NCBI RefSeq assembly: GCF_016756495.1
Contig: NZ_AP023243.1
Location: 434,001-498,000, forward strand
Direction: 5' to 3'
From: Mesorhizobium sp. 113-3-3
GTDB taxonomy: Bacteria; Pseudomonadota; Alphaproteobacteria; Rhizobiales; Rhizobiaceae
DNA: 64,000 nt
Within the stretch, counting starts at the first letter, position 1. Each line of letters opens with the position of its first letter. Position numbers and translations under genes: made by a program. The notes under the pieces were generated by a model. That model made no database searches and was not told where the DNA came from. It saw nothing but the letters and a program-made list of their open reading frames with translations. This document shows positions 54,286-63,996 of this stretch, one piece after another.

Positions 54286-54747
54286 TCACGGATTCCGGCG
54301 CGGTCGGCGCGGCTCCATACAATCGGGCGACGGCGTCGCCGCCAGGCCGCCAGCGCAGTCCGGGCCGTCGGGCTGTATGTCCGGCGCTGGCGCACAATCG
54401 ATTGCTGGTCCACCGCAATCGGGGCGTTCTGGACGGTCCGGCCTGTCGGGTCGGTCTGGCCGATCCGGACGATCTGGTCTGCCCGGCCAGTCTGGTCTGT
54501 CAGGCCGGTCCGGCCGATCCGGCCAGTCGGGGCGATCCGGCCTATCCGGCCTGTCGGGGCGCCATGGCCTGTCAGGTCTATCGGGGCGCCAAGGCCTGTC
54601 AGGGCGCCACGGCCTGTCGGGCCTGTGGTCACGGTCGCGCCAGTGGTGATCACGCCAAGGGCGGTCGCGGTAATCGTCCGTGTCGACGCATGCACTCAGC
54701 GTCGCGGCACAAAGGAGGAGCGCCAACGCGGTTGCGAACCTGGTCAT
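54286..54747 (-). CDS. Lipoprotein with Arg-Pro-Asp tripeptide repeats
   Basis: 153 residues. Signal peptide with lipobox LSAC, lipidated Cys20 (FATALALLLCAATLSAC). Residues about 24-110 are low complexity, mainly DRP and WRPDRP triplets with Trp at intervals, followed by a Cys/Pro/Gly segment with repeated PDC motifs. The mature protein is highly charged with alternating Arg and Asp and is probably disordered in the periplasm. The ATG at 54747 has a GGAAA about 12 bases upstream. Function unknown. Confidence 0.72.
   Translation of the reverse strand: MTRFATALALLLCAATLSACVDTDDYRDRPWRDHHWRDRDHRPDRPWRPDRPWRPDRPDRPWRPDRPDRPDRPDWPDRPDRPDRPDWPGRPDRPDRPDRPDRPDRPERPDCGGPAIDCAPAPDIQPDGPDCAGGLAATPSPDCMEPRRPRRNP
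54426..54675 (-). repeat. Tandem 9-base repeat region encoding Arg-Pro-Asp triplets
   Basis: Many near-identical copies of a CGGCCGGAC/CGGCCTGAC unit on the minus strand, within the lipoprotein gene. The copies differ mainly at third positions, which shows selection on the protein repeat. Length variation between strains is likely. Confidence 0.8.
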
Positions 54748-54843
54748 GATTGCGGTCGTTTCCTTGCTGTTGGCCACCTACGCGATGGGTCTGCCTGCTC
54801 GGGATTGCGCCTGCATTACGCCTTGTGCGAACGGGGATTCTGC

Positions 54844-55054: not shown

Positions 55055-55993
55055 TTACCAGAGCCAGCTGCCCTTCCCCAGCGCGGCCGCCGCATCGACA
55101 ATTCGGGTGAAACTTTCGCGGGCGCGACCGACCGTGTGCCGGGCCCTGAGATAGCCATGCACCAGGCCCGGTTCGTCGAACCATGTGGCCCGCCCGCCGC
55201 CCGCGATGATGCGGTCGCGATAGGTTTCGCCGTCTGAAGACAGCGGGTCGCACTGCGCGGTGATCAGGACTGTCGGCGGCAGCCTGGCGAAGTCGGTATC
55301 GGCCAGCGGCGCCAGCGTCGCATCGCCGCTGCGATCCTGCCCGCCGGTGCGGATGTGCTTGTAGAATTCGAGATCGCGCATGGTCAGCATCGGCGCCTCG
55401 GCATGGATCACATAGGAACCCTTCGAACGGTCGCCGCCGAGGCCGGGATAGATCAGGACCTGGCCCACCGGCGACTTCGCATGGCTGCGCGTGGCGTGCG
55501 CAACTGCGGCGCAGAGATTGCCGCCGGCGCTGTCGCCGCAGAGCAGGATGGGGCGGTCGCGGCTGGACGCAGCCCATGCGAAGGCGCTCATCGCATCATC
55601 GAAGGCTGCCGGATGCAGATGCTCCGGCGCCAGGCGGTAGTCGACCGAGACAACCTCGTAGCCGGTGCGGCCGCAGAGTTCGGCGCAGACATCGTCATGG
55701 CTGTCCAGCCCGCCAAGGATGAAGCCGCCGCCATGGATGTAGAGCACGGTCGCCGCCGGCTGCGGGGCGCTTCGGTAGGTGCGGATCGGGATGTCGTGCG
55801 TGGGCGTTGCGATGGCGGAGGTTTCGACCGTCACGCCCTGGGGGTAGCTGGCAAAGAACTCCCGGCACATGCGGTCATAGATCTCGCGCTGCTGGGTGAT
55901 CGTGTAGTCGATCGTATCGGGCGGATAGTAGGAATTGGTCCGCTCGATGAAGGCCCAGGTCTCGGCGTCGATGAGTTTTGTGTAGTCGGTCAT
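55055..55993 (-). CDS. Alpha/beta hydrolase, hormone-sensitive lipase-type esterase
   Basis: 312 residues. Oxyanion motif HGGGFILGGLDSHD, nucleophile GDSAGGNL, catalytic Asp in TAQCDPLSSDGE and His in EPGLVHGYLR. This is the bacterial HSL/acetyl-esterase family. No signal peptide. It lies downstream of the catabolic cluster, separated by a palindromic element; GGAG is present before the ATG. A thioesterase role in the cluster is possible but unproven. Confidence 0.9.
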   Translation of the reverse strand: MTDYTKLIDAETWAFIERTNSYYPPDTIDYTITQQREIYDRMCREFFASYPQGVTVETSAIATPTHDIPIRTYRSAPQPAATVLYIHGGGFILGGLDSHDDVCAELCGRTGYEVVSVDYRLAPEHLHPAAFDDAMSAFAWAASSRDRPILLCGDSAGGNLCAAVAHATRSHAKSPVGQVLIYPGLGGDRSKGSYVIHAEAPMLTMRDLEFYKHIRTGGQDRSGDATLAPLADTDFARLPPTVLITAQCDPLSSDGETYRDRIIAGGGRATWFDEPGLVHGYLRARHTVGRARESFTRIVDAAAALGKGSWLW

Positions 55994-56113: not shown

Positions 56114-56896
56114 TCACTTGCCCTTCCACACCGGATCGCGCTTTTCGGCGAAGGCGCGGAACCCTTCCATATTGTCCTCCGAACCGTACAGCGCATCGAC
56201 CGTCGCCAGTTGCCGGCGCGTCACCTTGTTCATGGCGTCCTGGAAGGTCAGCGCCTCGGCCACGCGCGCGGTCTCCTTGATCGCCGCAAACACCAGCGGC
56301 GGGCCGCTGGCGAGCAGCCTTGCGATCTCCCAGACGCGGTCCTCGAGCTTTTCCTTGGGCAGCACCTCGTTGACCAGGCCCCAGCGATGCGCTTCGGCGA
56401 CATCCATCCAGCGGCCGGTGAGCAAGAGGTCCATGGCGACATGATAGGGAATGCGCTTCGGCAGCTTGATCGTCGCCGCGTCGGCCAGCGTGCCGGCGCG
56501 GATTTCGGGGAGCGCGAAGGAGGAATGATCGGAGGCGTAGATGAGGTCGCAGGACAGCGCCAGCTCGAAGCCGCCGCCCACCGCCATGCCGTTGACGCAA
56601 GCGATGACCGGCTTGTTCAGGTCGCGCAATTCCTGAAGGCCGGCAAAGCCGCCGACGCCATAGTCGCCGTCGACCGCGTCGCCGCCGGCGGCTGCCTTGA
56701 GGTCCCAGCCGGCGCAGAAGAACTTGTCGCCGGCCGTCTTGACGATGGCAACGCGCAGTTCCGGGTCGTCGCGGAACGCCTTGAAGGTCTCGCCCATCAG
56801 CCGCGAGGTCTTGAGGTCGATGGCGTTGGCCTTGGGCCGGTCGAGCGTGACCTCGAGGATCGAGCCTTCGCGACGGGTCGAAATGACGTCAGACAT
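56114..56896 (-). CDS. caiD: Enoyl-CoA hydratase/isomerase, carnitinyl-CoA dehydratase (CaiD)-like
   Basis: 260 residues from ATG 56896. Crotonase fold with oxyanion holes at DKFFCAGWDLK and NGMAVGGGFELALSCDLIYA, the second carrying CaiD-like features; the catalytic Glu lies in FALPEIRAGTLAD. CaiD interconverts crotonobetainyl-CoA and L-carnitinyl-CoA. The neighbours (carnitine dehydrogenase, BKACE, acyl-CoA dehydrogenase) support this, but sequence alone would allow a general enoyl-CoA hydratase. Overlaps the 3' end of the upstream synthetase gene by eight bases. Confidence 0.8.
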   Translation of the reverse strand: MSDVISTRREGSILEVTLDRPKANAIDLKTSRLMGETFKAFRDDPELRVAIVKTAGDKFFCAGWDLKAAAGGDAVDGDYGVGGFAGLQELRDLNKPVIACVNGMAVGGGFELALSCDLIYASDHSSFALPEIRAGTLADAATIKLPKRIPYHVAMDLLLTGRWMDVAEAHRWGLVNEVLPKEKLEDRVWEIARLLASGPPLVFAAIKETARVAEALTFQDAMNKVTRRQLATVDALYGSEDNMEGFRAFAEKRDPVWKGK

Positions 56897-58973
56897 TCTT
56901 GTTTTCTCCCAGCACCAGCAGCGCATCGGCAATCCAGGCGCCCTTGCCTTCGACGCAGACGATCAGCGGGTTGATGTCGAGTTCCTCGATCTCGCCGGCA
57001 TTCTTCTGCACGAAACCGGCAATGCCCGCGATGGCGTCGATGGCGGCCGCGACGTCGGCCTTCGGCCGGCCGCGATAGCCTTCAAGCAGCGGGAACAGTT
57101 TGAGGCCGCGCAGGGCCGCCTCGATGTCGTCACGGGTCGCCGGCAGCATCAGCGTGACGCTGTCGCGCAGCAGCTCAACCAGAACGCCGCCGGTGCCGAG
57201 CGTCATGACAGCGCCGAACATCGGATCCCTGGTGAAGCCGACGATCAGTTCGGCGACGCCGTCGCGCACCATGCGCTCGACATAGAGCCCGGTGCCGAGG
57301 GGCAGCAGGTCATGCGCTGCCGTGCTGACGGATTCGGCGTCCTTGAGGTTGAGCCTGACGGCGCCGACCTCGGATTTGTGGGTGACGCCCAGCGCCTTCA
57401 GCGCGACGGGAAAGCCGAGCGCCATCGAGGAGATCACCGCCTCGACCGCATTGCCGGCGCGCTCGCCCTTCGGCACGGGAAGCCCGGCCTTGATCAGCCG
57501 CGCCTTGGCTTCAGCCTCGTCGGGCGTGACATGCTCGCCTCCGGCAGCGCCGGAAGCAGAGGTGTCGACCGGCTGCGCCTGCGGCTCAGCCCAAGCCCAG
57601 CCGATGAAGGCTGCCGCGCCCGCGGCATCCATCGCCTCGGAAATGCCGAACAGCGGCACCATGCCGCGCGCCATCAATTCGGCGGTGTATTCCTCGGGCA
57701 GGTTTTCCGGCAGCGAGGAGACGATGGCGCCGTGCGCCTTGTTGGTCTTCAGCGCCGATTCGAAGGCGCGCAGCGTCGCCCACCAGTCGGTGACCGAGCA
57801 GCGGTCCGGGCGCGGAAAGTCGAGCACCAGCATGTTGAGATCAAAACCGCCCGACACCATGGCGGTGAAGGTGGCGGTCATCGCCGGCTCGTTGTTCCAG
57901 ATGAAGGTGTGATAGTCCAACGGATTGGCGACCGCGACCAGCGGCCCAAGCGTCGACTTGACATGGGCTCGGTGCGTTTCCGTCAGCACCGGGAAATTGA
58001 CCCAGCGGCCTTCGGCGCTGTCGGCCATGACGGAGGCTTCGCCGCCCGAACAGCTCATCGACGAGAGGCGATAGCCGGGCAGCGGACCGGTGACGTGCAG
58101 CAGCTTCAGCGCCTCGATGAAGGCGGGGATGGAATCGACACGCGCAATGCCGAGCCGCCTCAGGAAGGCGCCCGAGGCCGCATCCGAGCCGGCGAGCGAG
58201 GCGGTATGCGAAACCGTCGCCTGCCGCGCCTGTTCGGAGCGGCCGACCTTCATGGCAATGATCGGTTTTTTCAGCTCGCGCGCCCTGGCGGCCAACCGTT
58301 CGAAGCCGGCTACGGAGTCAAAAGCCTCGATGTGCAGGCCGAGCGATGTCACCCGCTCATCCTCGATCAGGCCAAGCGCCATTTCGGAGAGGCCGGTCTG
58401 CGCCTGGTTGCCGGCGGTCATGAGGAAGGCGATCGGCAGGCCGCGCTTCTGCATCGTCATGTTGATGGCGATGTTGGAGGACTGGGTGATGATGGCAACA
58501 CCCTTGCCGCCCTCCTCCAGCCTGATGCCGCCATGCTGGTCGGGCCAGAGCAGCGCGCCGTCGGCATAGTTGATCAGGCCGTAGCAATTCGGCCCGATGA
58601 TCGGCATCTCGCCGGCCGCGGCGACCAGTTCGGCCTGCAGCCGCTCGCCATCGTCGTCATAGGCCTCGGTCTCGAGGAAGCCGGCGGCAAAGCAGACGGC
58701 GCCGCCGGCGCCGCGCTCGGCCAGCGCCTTGATGACCTCGATGGTGAGATGCCGGTTGACGCCGACAAAGGCTGCATCCGGCGCGCCGGGCAGATCGGCG
58801 ACCGACCGATAGGCCTTGCGGCCGGCGACTTCGTCCTTGGTCGGGTGCACCGGCCAGATTTCGCCGGCAAAGCCCATCTTGATGGATTGCGCGACGACGG
58901 CGGCGGCCTGCACGCCGCCGAAGACGGCGATCGATTTCGGGCGCAAGAGACGTTCGAGTTTATGCATGGTCAT
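56889..58973 (-). CDS. Acyl-CoA synthetase, NDP-forming (fused alpha-beta)
   Basis: 694 residues. CoA-binding Rossmann domain at the N-terminus (IAVFGGVQAAAVVAQSIKMGFAG in two blocks), succinyl-CoA-synthetase-like domains with IIGPNCYGLIN and SCSGGEASVMADSA, and a C-terminal ATP-grasp (LPVPKGERAGNAVEAV; GYRGRPKADVAA). Makes an acyl-CoA from an acid with ATP, giving ADP and phosphate. In context it is the candidate enzyme activating gamma-butyrobetaine, crotonobetaine or carnitine, a step usually done by AMP-forming BbsG/CaiC types. Confidence 0.87.
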   Translation of the reverse strand: MTMHKLERLLRPKSIAVFGGVQAAAVVAQSIKMGFAGEIWPVHPTKDEVAGRKAYRSVADLPGAPDAAFVGVNRHLTIEVIKALAERGAGGAVCFAAGFLETEAYDDDGERLQAELVAAAGEMPIIGPNCYGLINYADGALLWPDQHGGIRLEEGGKGVAIITQSSNIAINMTMQKRGLPIAFLMTAGNQAQTGLSEMALGLIEDERVTSLGLHIEAFDSVAGFERLAARARELKKPIIAMKVGRSEQARQATVSHTASLAGSDAASGAFLRRLGIARVDSIPAFIEALKLLHVTGPLPGYRLSSMSCSGGEASVMADSAEGRWVNFPVLTETHRAHVKSTLGPLVAVANPLDYHTFIWNNEPAMTATFTAMVSGGFDLNMLVLDFPRPDRCSVTDWWATLRAFESALKTNKAHGAIVSSLPENLPEEYTAELMARGMVPLFGISEAMDAAGAAAFIGWAWAEPQAQPVDTSASGAAGGEHVTPDEAEAKARLIKAGLPVPKGERAGNAVEAVISSMALGFPVALKALGVTHKSEVGAVRLNLKDAESVSTAAHDLLPLGTGLYVERMVRDGVAELIVGFTRDPMFGAVMTLGTGGVLVELLRDSVTLMLPATRDDIEAALRGLKLFPLLEGYRGRPKADVAAAIDAIAGIAGFVQKNAGEIEELDINPLIVCVEGKGAWIADALLVLGENKNV

Positions 58974-59053: not shown

Positions 59054-60217
59054 CTAAGCTCCGAACGGACGCAGCAGCGCCCGCGAAATAATGTGTCGCT
59101 GAATCTCCGACGTGCCTTCCCAGATGCGCTCGACGCGGGCGTCGCGCCAGATGCGCTCCAGCGGCAGGTCGTCCATCAGCCCCATGCCGCCATGGATCTG
59201 GATCGCCTCGTCGGCAACGTAAGCCAGCATTTCGGTGGCTTTAAGTTTGGCCATGGCCATGTCCTGGTCGGTGACAGTCCCCTGATCGTACTTCCAGCCA
59301 GCTTCGAACACCATCAGGTCGGCGGCCTTCAATTCCGTCGCCATGTCGGCGAGCTTGAAAGACACGCCCTGGAACTTGCCAATCTGCTGGCCGAATTGCT
59401 GGCGCTGCGCGGCGTACTCGACGGCGTGGCCAAGCGCCCGCTCGGCGCGGCCGAGACAGGTGGCGCCGACCTGCAGGCGGGTGGCGCCAAGCCAGGAATT
59501 GGCGACGTCGAAGCCCTTGTGCACTTCGCCCAGAACCTGGCTCGCCGGCAGGCGGCAATCGTCGAATTCGAGGATGGCGTTGGTGTAGCCGCGATGCGAG
59601 ACGTTGCGGTAGCCGTCGCGCACCGTGAACCCCTTTGTGCCCTTGTCGACAAAGAAGGCGGTGATCTTCTTGCGCTTGCCGCGCGGCGAATCCTCTTCGC
59701 CGGAAGCCATGAAGACGATGGCGAAATCAGCGAGATCGGCGTGGGAGATAAAATGCTTGGTGCCGTTCAGCACCCAGTCGTCGCCGTCCTGCACCGCGGT
59801 CGCCTTCATACCACGCAGGTCGGAGCCGGCGCCCGGCTCGGTCATCGCCAGGCAGTCCCATTTCTCGCCACGGATGCAAGGGAACAGGTATTTTTCGCGC
59901 TGCTCGGGCGTGCCGGCCAGCAGGATGTTGGAGGGACGCGCGACGCAGGTCCAGTGCAGCGCGTAATTGGCGCGGCCGAGTTCCTTTTCGTAGAGCAGCC
60001 AGGTCACGGTATCGAGGCCTGCGCCACCGACATCCGCGGGCATGTTGGCGGCGTAGAGACCGGCCTCGATCGCCTTGGCCTTGATCTCCTCGATCAGTTC
60101 GCGGCGCAGCACGCCGGTGCGCTCGACCTCGCGCTCATGCGGGTAGAGCTCATTCTCGACGAAGGCGCGAGTCGTCTCAACGATGAGTTTCTGTTCGTCC
60201 GAAAGACCGAAATCCAT
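59054..60217 (-). CDS. Acyl-CoA dehydrogenase (gamma-butyrobetainyl-CoA dehydrogenase candidate)
   Basis: 387 residues, standard length. FAD and substrate motifs: CLAMTEPGAGSDLRGMKA, FISHADLADFAIVF, and QIHGGMGLMDDLPLERIWRD in adjoining blocks; the C-terminal WEGTSEIQRHIISRALL carries the FAD-contact end. The catalytic base is not obvious to me without alignment. In the cluster it could form the crotonobetainyl-CoA double bond (CaiA-like). Starts four bases after the carnitine dehydrogenase stop, so co-transcribed. Confidence 0.87.
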   Translation of the reverse strand: MDFGLSDEQKLIVETTRAFVENELYPHEREVERTGVLRRELIEEIKAKAIEAGLYAANMPADVGGAGLDTVTWLLYEKELGRANYALHWTCVARPSNILLAGTPEQREKYLFPCIRGEKWDCLAMTEPGAGSDLRGMKATAVQDGDDWVLNGTKHFISHADLADFAIVFMASGEEDSPRGKRKKITAFFVDKGTKGFTVRDGYRNVSHRGYTNAILEFDDCRLPASQVLGEVHKGFDVANSWLGATRLQVGATCLGRAERALGHAVEYAAQRQQFGQQIGKFQGVSFKLADMATELKAADLMVFEAGWKYDQGTVTDQDMAMAKLKATEMLAYVADEAIQIHGGMGLMDDLPLERIWRDARVERIWEGTSEIQRHIISRALLRPFGA

Positions 60218-60221
60218 CGTC

Positions 60222-61316
60222 TCAGACCTTCTTCTTTTTCTTCGGCTTTTCCGCCTTCTTTACCGGCTTGGCGGCCTTGGCCTTCTCGGCGGCCTTGGAA
60301 GCCGCCGGCTTCTTCGCCGCCAGCTTGGCGAGCTGCTTGGTGTAATCCTTGTGCAGTGCGCCGGCACCCCAGCCCTTGCCCTTGTTCTGCTTCGAAAGCG
60401 CGTCCATGATCGCGACCAGATTGTCGTCGCGGATCTTTTCCAGCTCACGGATCGACAGGCCATGCGCCTGGTCGTCCGACTGGGTGGCGATCAGGTCGAC
60501 CAGTTCGTCGTTGAATTCCGGCACGTCCATCAGCTTGGTCCACGGCCATTTCAGGCAAGGTCCGAACTGCGCCATGAAGTGGCGCATGCCGGCCTCGCCA
60601 CCGGCGACGCGATAGACCTGGAACATGCCCATCTGCGCCCAGCGCAGGCCGAAGCCATAGCGCATGATGTCGTCGAGTTCCTCGACGGTGCAGATGCCGT
60701 CCTTGATCAGCCACAGCGCCTCGCGCCATGCCGCTTCCAGCAGGCGGTCGCCGACGAAGGCCTCGATCTCCTTGCGGATGACCACAGGCTTCATGCCGAT
60801 CGAGGCATAGATCTCCTTGGCGACCTCGATGGCCTCCGGAAAAGTCTGGTCGCCGCCGACGATTTCGACCAGCGGCAGGAGGTAGACCGGGTTGAACGGG
60901 TGGCCGACGACCAGCCGCTCCGGATGCTTCTTCATCGCCACCTGCATGTCGGTCGGCTTGATGCCGGAGGTCGAGGAGCCGACAATGGCGTTGGCCGGGG
61001 CATGGGCATCGATCTCGGCCAGCACCTTGTGCTTGAGGTCGAGCCGTTCCGGCACGCTTTCCTGGATGAAATCGGCATCGGCCACCGCCTCGGCGATGGT
61101 CTTGGCGAAGGTCAGCTTGCCCTCTTTCGGCAGGCCGCCGGGTACCATCTGCTTGTAGGCGCGGCGCGCGCCCTTCATCACTTCCGAGACCTTGCGCGAG
61201 GCTTCCGGATCCGGATCGAAGATGGACACGTCGATGCCGTTGAGCAGCAGCCGCGCCACCCAGCCGGCGCCGATGACACCGCCGCCAATGGCGGCCGCCT
61301 TGTTGATGATGCTCAT
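60222..61316 (-). CDS. cdhA: L-carnitine 3-dehydrogenase with basic C-terminal tail
   Basis: 364 residues. NAD-binding GGGVIGAGW at residues 11-19, then the 3-hydroxyacyl-CoA-dehydrogenase-like fold with SSTSGIKPTDMQ and GHPFNPVYLLPLVE (catalytic His). These match L-carnitine dehydrogenases, which make 3-dehydrocarnitine. Most members are about 320 residues; here residues 335-364 are an extra Lys/Ala/Pro tail ending KPKKKKKV. Start overlaps the stop of the HD-domain gene (ATGA), and BKACE is next upstream. Confidence 0.92.
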   Translation of the reverse strand: MSIINKAAAIGGGVIGAGWVARLLLNGIDVSIFDPDPEASRKVSEVMKGARRAYKQMVPGGLPKEGKLTFAKTIAEAVADADFIQESVPERLDLKHKVLAEIDAHAPANAIVGSSTSGIKPTDMQVAMKKHPERLVVGHPFNPVYLLPLVEIVGGDQTFPEAIEVAKEIYASIGMKPVVIRKEIEAFVGDRLLEAAWREALWLIKDGICTVEELDDIMRYGFGLRWAQMGMFQVYRVAGGEAGMRHFMAQFGPCLKWPWTKLMDVPEFNDELVDLIATQSDDQAHGLSIRELEKIRDDNLVAIMDALSKQNKGKGWGAGALHKDYTKQLAKLAAKKPAASKAAEKAKAAKPVKKAEKPKKKKKV

Positions 61317-61942
61317 GCGGAAGCTCCGGTTCTTGTCCTGGCTGTTTCGGGATCAATGAGAGGCACACGCTCGCCGGCGCGGATCACGGCTGCGTCGTAG
61401 GCCTTGCGGGCGAAGACTTCGAGCACGAAGGGCCGGAAGAATTCGATCGGCAGCGTCTCGTAATCGGGGTCGAAGCTCGACTGGTCCCAGCGCTCGCAGA
61501 ACTGGTCGCAATCATCGAAATAGGCGTGGCCGGCGAAGCGGTCGCGCGCATGGCGGTCGCCGCCGAGATGATGGGCGTAATAGAGCCGCTGGAAGTCGCC
61601 GTGCTTTTCCACCACCCAGGTGCATTGCTCGCGCACGAAGGGTTTCAGGATCGAAGCGGCGTATTCGTCGTGATTGTAGGGCGCGTAGATGTCGCCGATG
61701 TCGTGCAGCAGCGCGCAGGCGATCCAGTCGGTGTCGGCGCCGTCGCGCCAGGCGCGGGTCGCCGCCTGCAACGAATGGCCGAGCCGGGTGATCTTGTAGC
61801 CGGACAGGCCCTCGTCGAGCTGCACCAGCGCGTCGAGCAGCCGCTCGCCGGTCCTGGCGGCATAGTCGATTTCATGGGCGGTCAGGAACTCGTAGTCGTC
61901 CTTGTCGCCATCCTTCATCGCGGTGAATTTGACGGTGGCCAT
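61313..61942 (-). CDS. HD-domain protein resembling PhnZ/TmpB di-iron oxygenases
   Basis: 209 residues. The metal motifs are His56 (RLGHSLQAA), His80-Asp81 (ALLHDIGDIY), His91 (YNHDEYAA), and further His at 114 and 124-125, with Asp-rich FDDCDQF after. The His56 to His80 spacing of 24 and the GHSLQAA block parallel PhnZ (LEHSLQ; His34, His58-Asp59), a mixed-valent di-iron oxygenase, rather than a nucleotide phosphohydrolase. It lies between cdhA (four-base overlap) and BKACE (14 bases). TmpB of this fold releases glycine betaine from a trimethylamino-phosphonate, so a quaternary-amine substrate is plausible. Activity is unproven. Confidence 0.8.
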   Translation of the reverse strand: MATVKFTAMKDGDKDDYEFLTAHEIDYAARTGERLLDALVQLDEGLSGYKITRLGHSLQAATRAWRDGADTDWIACALLHDIGDIYAPYNHDEYAASILKPFVREQCTWVVEKHGDFQRLYYAHHLGGDRHARDRFAGHAYFDDCDQFCERWDQSSFDPDYETLPIEFFRPFVLEVFARKAYDAAVIRAGERVPLIDPETARTRTGASA

Positions 61943-61956
61943 CTCAAACCTCCGCT

Positions 61957-62880
61957 TTATGCCGCGGCTGCGATCGGCGCCCGCTTGGTCAAATTAAGCT
62001 TCTTGCGCACTTCCTCCGGCCCGAGGATCCGGGCGCCGAGATTGGTCACGATGCTGGCGGCGCGCTCGACGAGCTGCGCGTTGGTGGCCAGCACGCCCTT
62101 GTCGAGCCAAAGATTGTCTTCCAGACCGACGCGGACATTGCCGCCGGCGAGCACGGCGGCCGCGGCATAGGCCATCTGGTTGCGGCCGATGGCGAAAGCC
62201 GACCAGTTCCAGGTCGAGGGCACGTTGTTGACCATGGCCATGAAGGTGTTGAGATCGTCAGGCGCGCCCCACGGCACGCCCATGCAGAGCTGCACCAGCG
62301 CGTCGGGGTTGAGCACCTTCTCCTCGACCAGCTGCTTGGCGAACCAGAGATGGCCGGTGTCGAAAGCCTCGATCTCCGGCTTGACACCGAGCGCCGTCAT
62401 CATGCCGCCCATCGCGCGCAGCATGCCGGGCGTGTTGGTCATGACATAGTCGGCTTCGGCGAAGTTCATGGTGCCGCAGTCAAGGGTGCAGATTTCCGGC
62501 AGGCATTGGCGGACATGTTCCATGCGGTTGGTGGCGCCGCCCATGTCGGTGCCCTTCTCATTGAGCGGCAGCGGCGCTTCCGGCGAGCCGAACACCATGT
62601 CGCCGCCCATGCCGGCGGTGAGATTCAGCACCACGTCGACGTTGGCGTCACGGATACGCTCTGTGACTTCGCGGTAGAGATGCACATCGCGGCGCGGTTT
62701 GCCGGTCTCGGGGTCGCGGACATGGCAGTGGACGATCGCCGCGCCGGCCTTGGCCGCGTCGATGGCCGAATCGGCGATCTGCTTGGGCGAACGCGGCACA
62801 TGCGGAGAGCGATCCTGCGAACCGCCGGACCCGGTCACGGCACAGGTAATGAAAACCTCACGGTTCATCGCAAGCGGCAT
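61957..62880 (-). CDS. cdhC: BKACE family beta-keto acid cleavage enzyme, dehydrocarnitine type
   Basis: 307 residues from ATG 62880, which follows GGGAGGAG. TIM-barrel of the DUF849/BKACE family with the zinc-binding HxH (IVHCHVRDPETG) and conserved FITCAVTGS and VGLEDNLWLDKG. Members adjacent to carnitine dehydrogenase convert 3-dehydrocarnitine and acetyl-CoA to betainyl-CoA and acetoacetate. First gene of the minus-strand cluster. The substrate is inferred from the neighbours. Confidence 0.9.
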   Translation of the reverse strand: MPLAMNREVFITCAVTGSGGSQDRSPHVPRSPKQIADSAIDAAKAGAAIVHCHVRDPETGKPRRDVHLYREVTERIRDANVDVVLNLTAGMGGDMVFGSPEAPLPLNEKGTDMGGATNRMEHVRQCLPEICTLDCGTMNFAEADYVMTNTPGMLRAMGGMMTALGVKPEIEAFDTGHLWFAKQLVEEKVLNPDALVQLCMGVPWGAPDDLNTFMAMVNNVPSTWNWSAFAIGRNQMAYAAAAVLAGGNVRVGLEDNLWLDKGVLATNAQLVERAASIVTNLGARILGPEEVRKKLNLTKRAPIAAAA

Positions 62881-63015: not shown

Positions 63016-63996
63016 ATGATAAAAAACGAAAAAGCGACAATCTTTCATGCCGAGCAGTCGCCGCTCAAGGTGACGCTGCTGGTGTTTTCCGGGGCGTCCA
63101 TAATGTGCGTGGCGTGCGCCGTCGATCCGCTGCGCGCCGCCAACCGCATCGCCGGAGAAACCTTGTTCGACTTCAAGCTGGTTTCGGTGACGGGGGAGGC
63201 GCCGGTCACGACATGCGGCCTGCCCATAGCGGTGAGCGGCCGGTTCGATGCTACTGATACAACCGATGTCCTGATCGTCGTCGCGGGCTTCGGCACGCAG
63301 AATTATGCCACGTCGGCCTTGCTCGCCGGCCTGCGCCGCGCTGCGCGGTCGGCCCGCGCCTGCGGCGGCGTCGAGGCGGGCACATGGCTGGTGGCGCGCG
63401 CCGGCCTGCTGGAAGGGCGCAGCGCCACCACCCATTGGGAGGACATGGAGGATTTTTCTTCGGCCTTTCCCGGCGTCGACGTGCGCCCCGATCGCTACAT
63501 CATCGACGGACCGGTGTTCACCACGGGCGGCGCGTCGCCGACGCTCGACCTGATGCTGCACCTGATTCGCACCCGGCTCGGCATGGCGGTGGCGCTCGAT
63601 GTGGCAAGCGCGTTCATCTACGACCAGGCGCGCGTGGCGACCGATGCGCAGCCGCTGGTCTCGCTTGGCCGGCTCGACGGCTATGATCCACGCCTGGCGC
63701 AAGCCATCCGGCTGATGGAAGCGCATGTCGACCAGCCGCTGACCATTGAAGCCATAGCCAAGCGCGCCGGCGTGACGGCGCGTACGCTGGAAAGCATCTT
63801 TCGCAAGTCGATCGGCGAGACGCCGGGGGCCTATTATCTCAGGCTGCGCCTGGGGGCCGCGCGCCGGCTGGTGGTCGACACGCGGGTGGCCATGGCGGAT
63901 ATTGCCGGGCGGACAGGATTCTCGTCCGCCGCGGCATTTTCCAGAGCATTTTCAAGAGCGTTCGGCGAAGCCCCGGTCAGGTTGCGCCGGGGTTAG
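63016..63996 (+). CDS. cdhR: GATase1-like AraC family regulator (CdhR type)
   Basis: 326 residues. N-terminal DJ-1/PfpI-like amidotransferase fold (about 20-195: VTLLVFSGASIMCVACAVDPL; VEAGTWLVARAGLLEGRSATTHW in blocks), C-terminal AraC HTH (about 225-326: LTIEAIAKRAGVTARTLESIF; MADIAGRTGFSSAAAFSRAF). This is the GbdR/CdhR/SouR family that senses glycine betaine, carnitine or related amines. It is divergent from the BKACE-HD-cdhA operon and probably activates it. ATG 63016 is chosen; 62950 in the repeat is the alternative. Confidence 0.9.
   Translation: MIKNEKATIFHAEQSPLKVTLLVFSGASIMCVACAVDPLRAANRIAGETLFDFKLVSVTGEAPVTTCGLPIAVSGRFDATDTTDVLIVVAGFGTQNYATSALLAGLRRAARSARACGGVEAGTWLVARAGLLEGRSATTHWEDMEDFSSAFPGVDVRPDRYIIDGPVFTTGGASPTLDLMLHLIRTRLGMAVALDVASAFIYDQARVATDAQPLVSLGRLDGYDPRLAQAIRLMEAHVDQPLTIEAIAKRAGVTARTLESIFRKSIGETPGAYYLRLRLGAARRLVVDTRVAMADIAGRTGFSSAAAFSRAFSRAFGEAPVRLRRG

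Follow-up and report, generated by a model that had tools for sequence, protein, structure and literature searches.

What is a protein resembling phosphonate oxygenases doing in a carnitine operon? The question is raised by a 64,000-nucleotide stretch of Mesorhizobium sp. 113-3-3 DNA (contig NZ_AP023243.1, positions 434,001 to 498,000; hereafter the window), in which the gene for a 209-amino-acid HD-domain protein (the HD protein) lies between those for a beta-keto acid cleavage enzyme (BKACE) and carnitine 3-dehydrogenase (CdhA). To judge from the sequences, the HD protein belongs to a widespread family that is related to PhnZ and TmpB and has lost the phosphonate-type pocket. By analogy with these relatives we favour, with a confidence just short of even, a non-phosphonate di-iron HD oxygenase that would oxidatively cleave a hydroxylated quaternary amine, likeliest carnitine or a near analogue, giving glycine betaine. 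This proposal starts from the gene and its operon, a set of invariant ligands, the loss of phosphonate residues, a recurrent pairing with dioxygenases and some neighbours concerned with quaternary amines.

Kinship of the HD protein with phosphonate oxygenases

The open reading frame (61313 to 61942, minus strand) starts with ATG and stands where a sequence-only reading of the window had placed it, between BKACE and the carnitine dehydrogenase. The residues described by that reading were all located: the GHSLQAA block comprises residues 55-61, the H80-D81 pair begins 24 residues past H56, and H91, H114 and D153 follow downstream. HD-domain oxygenases carry a six-ligand motif, H...HD...H...H...D, together with a YxxE loop for substrate binding and O2 gating, and MIOX, PhnZ and TmpB are the three such enzymes named in the accessible part of a review (PMC8177086). 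We aligned 134 family relatives (of 137 extracted, those outside 170-225 amino acids being dropped) with 30 PhnZ/TmpB-type proteins; L211 was dropped from the structure alignment (L and G denote loci and genomes of our sets). The six di-iron ligands, H56, H80, D81, H91, H114 and D153 in the window, are all present, as had been predicted, and are invariant in 134/134 relatives and in the phosphonate set.

Outside the ligands the two groups differ. The YxxE tyrosine, found in 30/30 phosphonate types, is Leu in 55, Phe in 24 and Tyr in 10 of the 134 HD family members, with other residues in the remainder; the window protein has L46. The residue following HDIG is His in 28/30 phosphonate types and Asp in 130/134 of the HD family. 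A Lys and an Arg, each conserved in 30/30 phosphonate types, correspond to Gln in 133/134 family members (Gln118 in the window) and to Glu in 87/134 (Glu150; Arg in 4/134), respectively. We take these two to be K108 and R158 of PhnZ, in numbering as well as in role. A second Lys (30/30) is Phe in 134/134 (Phe157), and a loop with S, Q, G and G columns, present in 30/30 phosphonate types, is missing from the HD family.

Family models place the HD protein outside the known groups. On its own it reached 33.0 bits against the phosphonate HD oxygenase model TIGR03276 (cut-off 214.6), 22.6 bits against the TmpB model NF049941 (cut-off 300), 26.2 bits against NF052439 (cut-off 300) and 19.2 bits against Pfam MIOX PF05153 (cut-off 25), with Pfam HD being the sole Pfam family over its cut-off (23.5 bits, cut-off 22). 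The single protein matched PhnZ among PDB sequences at 4.8e-5, and a profile of 47 relatives, compared with solved structures, ranked PhnZ (1e-12) and TmpB (2.7e-12) at the top, the next match standing at 0.062. Three phosphonate-oxygenase models were matched at E <= 0.001 by 47, 47 and 46 of the 47 relatives, and Pfam MIOX was matched weakly by 27/47. A confident AlphaFold2 model from 44 sequences is all-helical (mean predicted local distance difference test score 96.1, predicted template modelling score 0.91) and seats the six ligand residues on helices or helix ends. On these comparisons the HD protein is a real but remote relative of PhnZ and TmpB, outside that family by score. Of its earlier description as a PhnZ/TmpB-like HD oxygenase, the remote homology and the six ligands stand; the TmpB pocket residues are replaced. 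No characterised member of the HD family was recognised in the literature searched, in which few subscription papers were covered, and its own genome holds no second match to the HD protein at E <= 0.001.

That genome carries a separate TmpA-TmpB pair at G000:C1:3441456-3443119 (L275). TmpA scores 557.0 bits (cut-off 400) and, with 535.1 bits, also exceeds the gamma-butyrobetaine dioxygenase (BBOX) cut-off; TmpB, directly after it, scores 328.4 bits (cut-off 300) and reaches 206.1 bits against TIGR03276, slightly under the threshold. By these scores the pair is the trimethylaminoethylphosphonate pathway. The HD protein was rejected as a TmpB orthologue: its pocket residues differ from those of TmpB, and the genome already encodes an over-cut-off TmpA-TmpB pair elsewhere.

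Neighbourhoods and dioxygenase partners of the HD family

Matches at E <= 0.001, a count that takes in weak partial matches, occur in 38/199 sampled genomes of the family, 122/385 of the class and 62/398 of the phylum, some genomes recurring between the samples; at E <= 1e-20 the figure for the class is 109/385. We surveyed 146 homologue loci with profiles for four genes, some stretches being 3.6 kb long or cut by contig ends, and many loci coming from one genus and hence not being independent. BKACE and CdhA both lie within 5 kb of the HD gene in 20/146 loci (18 rhizobial, L175 and L197). In a tree built by a quick method, the rhizobial carnitine-linked proteins form one clade (20 rows, support 93), which also holds L151, with BKACE nearby but no CdhA, while L175 and L197 fall elsewhere. 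Parsimony requires 4 changes for carnitine linkage (L151 scored as unlinked) and 15 for the dioxygenase partner. The expected linkage of homologues to cdhA is borne out in part: BKACE-CdhA pairs occur on three tree branches (the rhizobial clade, L175 and L197), and 126/146 loci have no such pair nearby. By a rough estimate of a few per cent, two chance associations between HD and carnitine genes in about 126 loci, at about 10 kb per genome, are not impossible; the dioxygenase pairing is therefore the stronger signal.

A 2-oxoglutarate dioxygenase adjoins the HD gene on the same strand in 24/146 loci (11 TauD, including L197, and 13 PhyH). Counted more strictly, 23 dioxygenases lie immediately upstream of HD, against 8 matches elsewhere in 1.67 Mb, among which is the PhyH of L245, situated downstream of HD; the profiles for TauD and PhyH derive from members next to HD and are hence biased towards these. 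A less biased sign comes from neighbour clustering, which ranked both families among the more often shared (6 and 5 of 63 loci) before they were named. For the TauD partner of L161 the closest match is TmpA (6npb, 3.2e-58), ahead of gamma-butyrobetaine dioxygenase (6e-36). Three aromatic cage positions, which we presume to be those of BBOX, were scored in the TauD partners, and all three are aromatic in 10/11, the exception being L197. TmpA holds the phosphonate by N187, N287 and R288, and the three proteins compared in the accessible part of that study share aromatic residues for the trimethyl group (PMC9296572). The N187 position is Asp in 11/11 TauD partners, N287 is kept in 1/11 (L197), and R288 is kept in 10/11, with Lys in the other. 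Set against the TmpA cut-off of 400, L197 scores 422.5, L161 354.7 and pF045_1 347.5, so that L197 is the one scanned partner to exceed it. For the most part, the TauD partners seem to mirror the HD protein, with quaternary-amine handling kept and phosphonate handling changed.

On the Pseudomonas aeruginosa plasmid pF045_1, the genes after TauD and HD encode, in this order, a choline ABC binding protein (457.7 bits, cut-off 379.05), a choline-dehydrogenase type (NF002550 755.8, cut-off 605; betA equivalog 673.9, under 732.1) and a betaine-aldehyde-dehydrogenase-like protein (425.3 bits, under the cut-off of 668.6). Annotations of plasmid copies of the HD gene range from HD domain protein and phosphohydrolase to inositol oxygenase family and hypothetical. 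Beside the pF045_1 cluster lies a gene for an 837-amino-acid coenzyme A (CoA) transferase (L362:17245-19758), both halves of which match CaiB-type models, a build that we take to be like that of DddD. Two further settings were observed. Another Mesorhizobium has a second HD family copy (L211:6510-8760) after an amidohydrolase and a Rieske-domain gene, with a convergent gene for an MTTB-family methyltransferase. In two small genomes of one family (L164 and L169, 1.2-1.3 Mb), HD is flanked by purF and by genes of glutathione synthesis, the gene order being conserved.

The HD gene in the carnitine operon

The genes at the window locus are the following.

63016..63996, plus strand: AraC-family regulator, GbdR/CdhR-like, divergent (PF12833; NF052371 205.3 bits, under the cut-off of 480)
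61957..62880, minus strand: BKACE, CdhC-type (Pfam PF05853 326.9 bits; NCBIfam equivalogs under cut-off)
61313..61942, minus strand: HD-domain protein, putative di-iron HD oxygenase, 209 amino acids
60222..61316, minus strand: carnitine 3-dehydrogenase CdhA, without fused thioesterase domain (NF005716 596.7 bits, cut-off 592)
59054..60217, minus strand: acyl-CoA dehydrogenase, putatively for gamma-butyrobetainyl-CoA oxidation (Pfam/NCBIfam, under all listed equivalog cut-offs)
56889..58973, minus strand: ADP-forming acyl-CoA synthetase (PF13549, PF13607, PF13380)
56114..56896, minus strand: enoyl-CoA hydratase, nearest to crotonobetainyl-CoA hydratase CaiD (NF002936 318.9 bits, cut-off 500)
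55055..55993, minus strand: alpha/beta hydrolase, putative acylcarnitine esterase like HocS (PF07859)

BKACE to the alpha/beta hydrolase probably constitute one leftward-transcribed operon, and it holds both CdhA, over its NF005716 cut-off, and BKACE (PF05853), as a carnitine operon should. The HD start codon follows the BKACE end by 14 nt. The overlap of the HD gene with cdhA was confirmed as a 4-bp ATGA at 61313-61316 (HD stop 61313-61315, cdhA start 61314-61316). For the CaiD-like hydratase the longest open reading frame starts at 56932, the start codon used above being a presumed one. From 460 confirmed relatives of the HD protein, the best 80 were taken for synteny; nearly all are Mesorhizobium, its closest named relatives. 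BKACE, HD and CdhA are adjacent in 80/80 of these loci, and since order and strand are kept throughout, the arrangement is not due to chance.

CdhA aligns to NF005716 in the dehydrogenase part alone of that fused model. At the place of the 4HBT thioesterase fused in many relatives, it has a Lys-rich C-terminal tail (60222-60310). One distant thioesterase relative, of 37% identity, is found in the source genome at G000:C1:3405735. Farther left, a 163-amino-acid open reading frame (54286-54777, minus strand) with long RPDRPDRP-type repeats is possibly a low-complexity lipoprotein.

Whether the operon needs the HD gene was examined in the 199 genomes of the family, in which CdhA types were counted by hand: 60 genomes have CdhA without the thioesterase part and 63 have it fused, two partial CdhA matches (G130 and G043) being excluded. 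HD stands at the operon in 14/60 genomes with unfused and 2/63 with fused CdhA, G087 being scored as HD at the operon though its CdhA is on another contig. Among HD-less loci of the unfused type, 18 (L337-L354) were examined; CdhA comes after BKACE on the same strand in 18/18, and none has an HD match. A GbdR-like gene precedes, and acyl-CoA dehydrogenase, synthetase and hydratase genes follow, in 13/18; L352 resembles these minus the GbdR-like match, L351 shows every one of them except the hydratase up to the end of its contig, and in L340, L342 and L348 neither dehydrogenase, synthetase nor hydratase was recognised. When the BKACE-CdhA gaps of 7 HD-less operons were searched for remnants of the HD gene, the matches did not rise above chance level. 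In three HD-less loci a wider gap (L344:5953-6181, L345:5701-5936 and L351:5272-5549) contains short inverted-repeat-like intergenic DNA and no gene.

As 18/18 carnitine loci do without it, the HD gene looks like an accessory gene rather than a substitute for the thioesterase, and the earlier contention that the carnitine route needs no such enzyme is upheld. Another suggestion, that HD replaces a missing hydroxylase, was not sustained: the acyl-CoA dehydrogenase and CaiD-like hydratase of the operon plausibly handle hydroxylation. Together with the synthetase, they would fit a CoA-dependent route from gamma-butyrobetaine to carnitine, all three being under or without equivalog cut-offs. A 2019 study in J Bacteriol reportedly dealt with carnitine metabolism of S. 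meliloti.

A candidate reaction, its alternatives and known systems

Metal, oxygenase chemistry, substrate and product of the HD protein are inferred by analogy with PhnZ, TmpB and MIOX. An alcohol-bearing substrate would sit at a mixed-valent Fe(II)/Fe(III) site; O2 would be activated on the second iron, hydrogen taken from the carbinol carbon, and the neighbouring C-C bond cleaved in a four-electron oxidation. We postulate a substrate of the form Me3N+-CH2-CH(OH)-X, where X is PO3 in the TmpB substrate, CH2COO- in carnitine and COO- in 2-hydroxy-beta-alanine betaine. For each X, cleavage beside the carbinol would give glycine betaine, with which the operon also ends, and the HD gene would provide a shortcut, or a side entrance, to CdhA/BKACE that depends on O2. 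In TauD and PhyH loci the dioxygenase would install the hydroxyl; for the rhizobial operon, carnitine would come from outside or via the CoA route. A bolder version, which we think rather improbable, is a further class of HD di-iron oxygenases that cleaves the C-C bond of carnitine to glycine betaine and a two-carbon acid and, with a TauD partner, takes gamma-butyrobetaine or beta-alanine betaine to glycine betaine in two O2-dependent steps. Such cleavage would be the carboxymethyl analogue of the TmpB reaction and, with TauD, a CoA-free pathway, not met in the literature searched. Should the oxygenase proposal be right, it would show how bacteria can obtain glycine betaine from carnitine or other betaines without CoA chemistry.

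Several observations weigh against the oxygenase proposal. The six ligands are not diagnostic of an oxygenase, since the phosphatase YqeK shares them according to the accessible part of the review (PMC8177086), and the YxxE tyrosine of PhnZ and TmpB is absent from the window protein. CdhA and BKACE already convert carnitine to betainyl-CoA, making a carnitine oxygenase redundant. None of the four profiled genes is near HD in 96/146 loci, the remaining loci with neither a BKACE-CdhA pair nor an adjoining dioxygenase having one alone or farther off, and CdhA of both L175 and L197 scores under its curated cut-off (343.8 and 413.7, cut-off 414). The L197 TauD passes the TmpA cut-off, keeps N287 and is without two of the cage residues. 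The source genome itself holds no close TauD or PhyH partner: its best TauD match is TmpA at 35%, besides which there are two weak PhyH matches and one more gene resembling TmpA/BBOX (30%). An adjacent hydroxylase at the window locus was rejected, with no TauD or PhyH match there. Distant members (about 40-50% identity) lie in several loci beside an aldolase, a hydratase and other unrelated catabolic or housekeeping genes; the HD family therefore need not have one common substrate and may cover several. The quaternary-amine proposal is limited to the carnitine- and TauD-linked branches, and the PhyH-linked branches lie outside it.

For hydrolysis it can be said that the generic HD domain alone passed its cut-off in the single-protein Pfam scan, and that one distant relative is annotated as a phosphohydrolase. 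A phosphohydrolase or phosphodiesterase using a hydrolytic di-metal site on a phosphorylated metabolite or nucleotide is nevertheless unlikely in our view: the nearest characterised relatives by profile are oxygenases, the family pairs recurrently with a 2-oxoglutarate dioxygenase, and Asp follows HDIG in 130/134 members. Lys or Arg stands there in many HD nucleotide hydrolases. Slightly less probable again is redox-neutral catalysis: as a lyase or hydratase, the HD protein would collapse a hydroxylated intermediate from the partner dioxygenase or the operon, or add water to it. Ddi2, an HD protein, acts as a hydratase (PMC8177086, accessible part), and MgdH-MgdL is a precedent for a specialised lyase that works after a 2-oxoglutarate dioxygenase; the model of MgdL in the accessible part of that work (PMC12508155), however, is a beta-barrel in which Asp and Arg provide the acid-base catalysis, and MgdL is hence no HD relative. 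Ddi2, for its part, has a Zn centre and Thr at the last Asp, a residue invariant in the HD family (134/134). We place at the same low level a salvage oxygenase, which remains a serious alternative. 3-Dehydrocarnitine, which the operon should produce, is unstable and decarboxylates to trimethylaminoacetone; a salvage enzyme would cleave the C-C bond of this compound, 3-dehydrocarnitine minus CO2, or of its alcohol, to give glycine betaine, and an accessory repair gene could well be absent, as in the 18/18 HD-less loci. The accessible part of one paper reports that cells grown on carnitine contain trimethylaminoacetone and cites the formation of glycine betaine from it in an extract of Pseudomonas sp. 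AK1, without naming an enzyme (PMC12482172). Against this, BKACE should consume dehydrocarnitine first, no sequence feature indicates trimethylaminoacetone, and the acid-group Arg of TmpA, kept in 10/11 TauD partners elsewhere, suggests an acid substrate.

Two older ideas retain very little probability. That HD stands in for the missing CdhB thioesterase would agree with a window CdhA without a thioesterase domain and with the excess of HD genes at unfused operons (14/60, against 2/63 fused), and we rejected it nonetheless. No HD gene was seen at the operon in 46/60 genomes with unfused CdhA; a thioesterase-like match was found within the examined stretch in 2/18 HD-less loci, so that many have neither; HD coexists with fused CdhA in G139 (L093) and G046 (a match with one stop); L175 has HD, thioesterase, BKACE and CdhA all together; and HD is not a thioesterase fold. 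Least credible of all is a true TmpB/PhnZ-type phosphonate oxygenase, recruited as both routes yield glycine betaine. The remote homology and the L197 partner over the TmpA cut-off speak for it; the 33.0 bits where 214.6 are required, the exchange of the invariant (30/30) Tyr, Lys, Arg and Lys for Leu, Gln, Glu and Phe, and the resident TmpA-TmpB pair speak against it. Our preference stays with the non-phosphonate quaternary-amine oxygenase. Its substrate is directly searchable, since the family is marked by definite residues and lies next to dioxygenase genes at some loci and to quaternary-amine genes at others, and the names PhnZ, TmpB and MIOX should not be transferred to the HD family.

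Compared with known systems, the HD protein stands closest to TmpB, the (R)-1-hydroxy-2-trimethylaminoethylphosphonate oxygenase (6NPA), in its remote homology, its six-ligand motif and possibly a trimethylammonium substrate, and some loci of the family share the tandem 2-oxoglutarate dioxygenase of the TmpA/BBOX group. In contrast to TmpB, it scores far under the cut-off, is without the YxxE Tyr, the Lys, the Arg and the loop, and has no adjoining dioxygenase in the window. PhnZ, the 2-amino-1-hydroxyethylphosphonate oxygenase (4MLM, 4MLN, 4N6W, 4N71), is the best solved relative by sequence, with the last ligand Asp aligned, whereas the HD protein has lost the PhnZ pocket residues and sits with carnitine genes. 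Myo-inositol oxygenase (MIOX) is a model for the di-iron C-C cleavage chemistry, though the Pfam match of the HD protein to it is under cut-off. The adjacent dioxygenase of the two-oxygenase modules PhnY-PhnZ and TmpA-TmpB is absent at the window locus and present in 24/146 relatives' loci. Finally, the Pseudomonas aeruginosa caiX-cdhCAB-hocS operon shares carnitine dehydrogenase, BKACE (CdhC), an esterase-type gene and a divergent regulator with the rhizobial one; as named in the accessible part of its description (PMC5806209), that operon is without an HD gene, whereas the rhizobial operon adds an acyl-CoA dehydrogenase, a CoA synthetase and a hydratase and here lacks CdhB.

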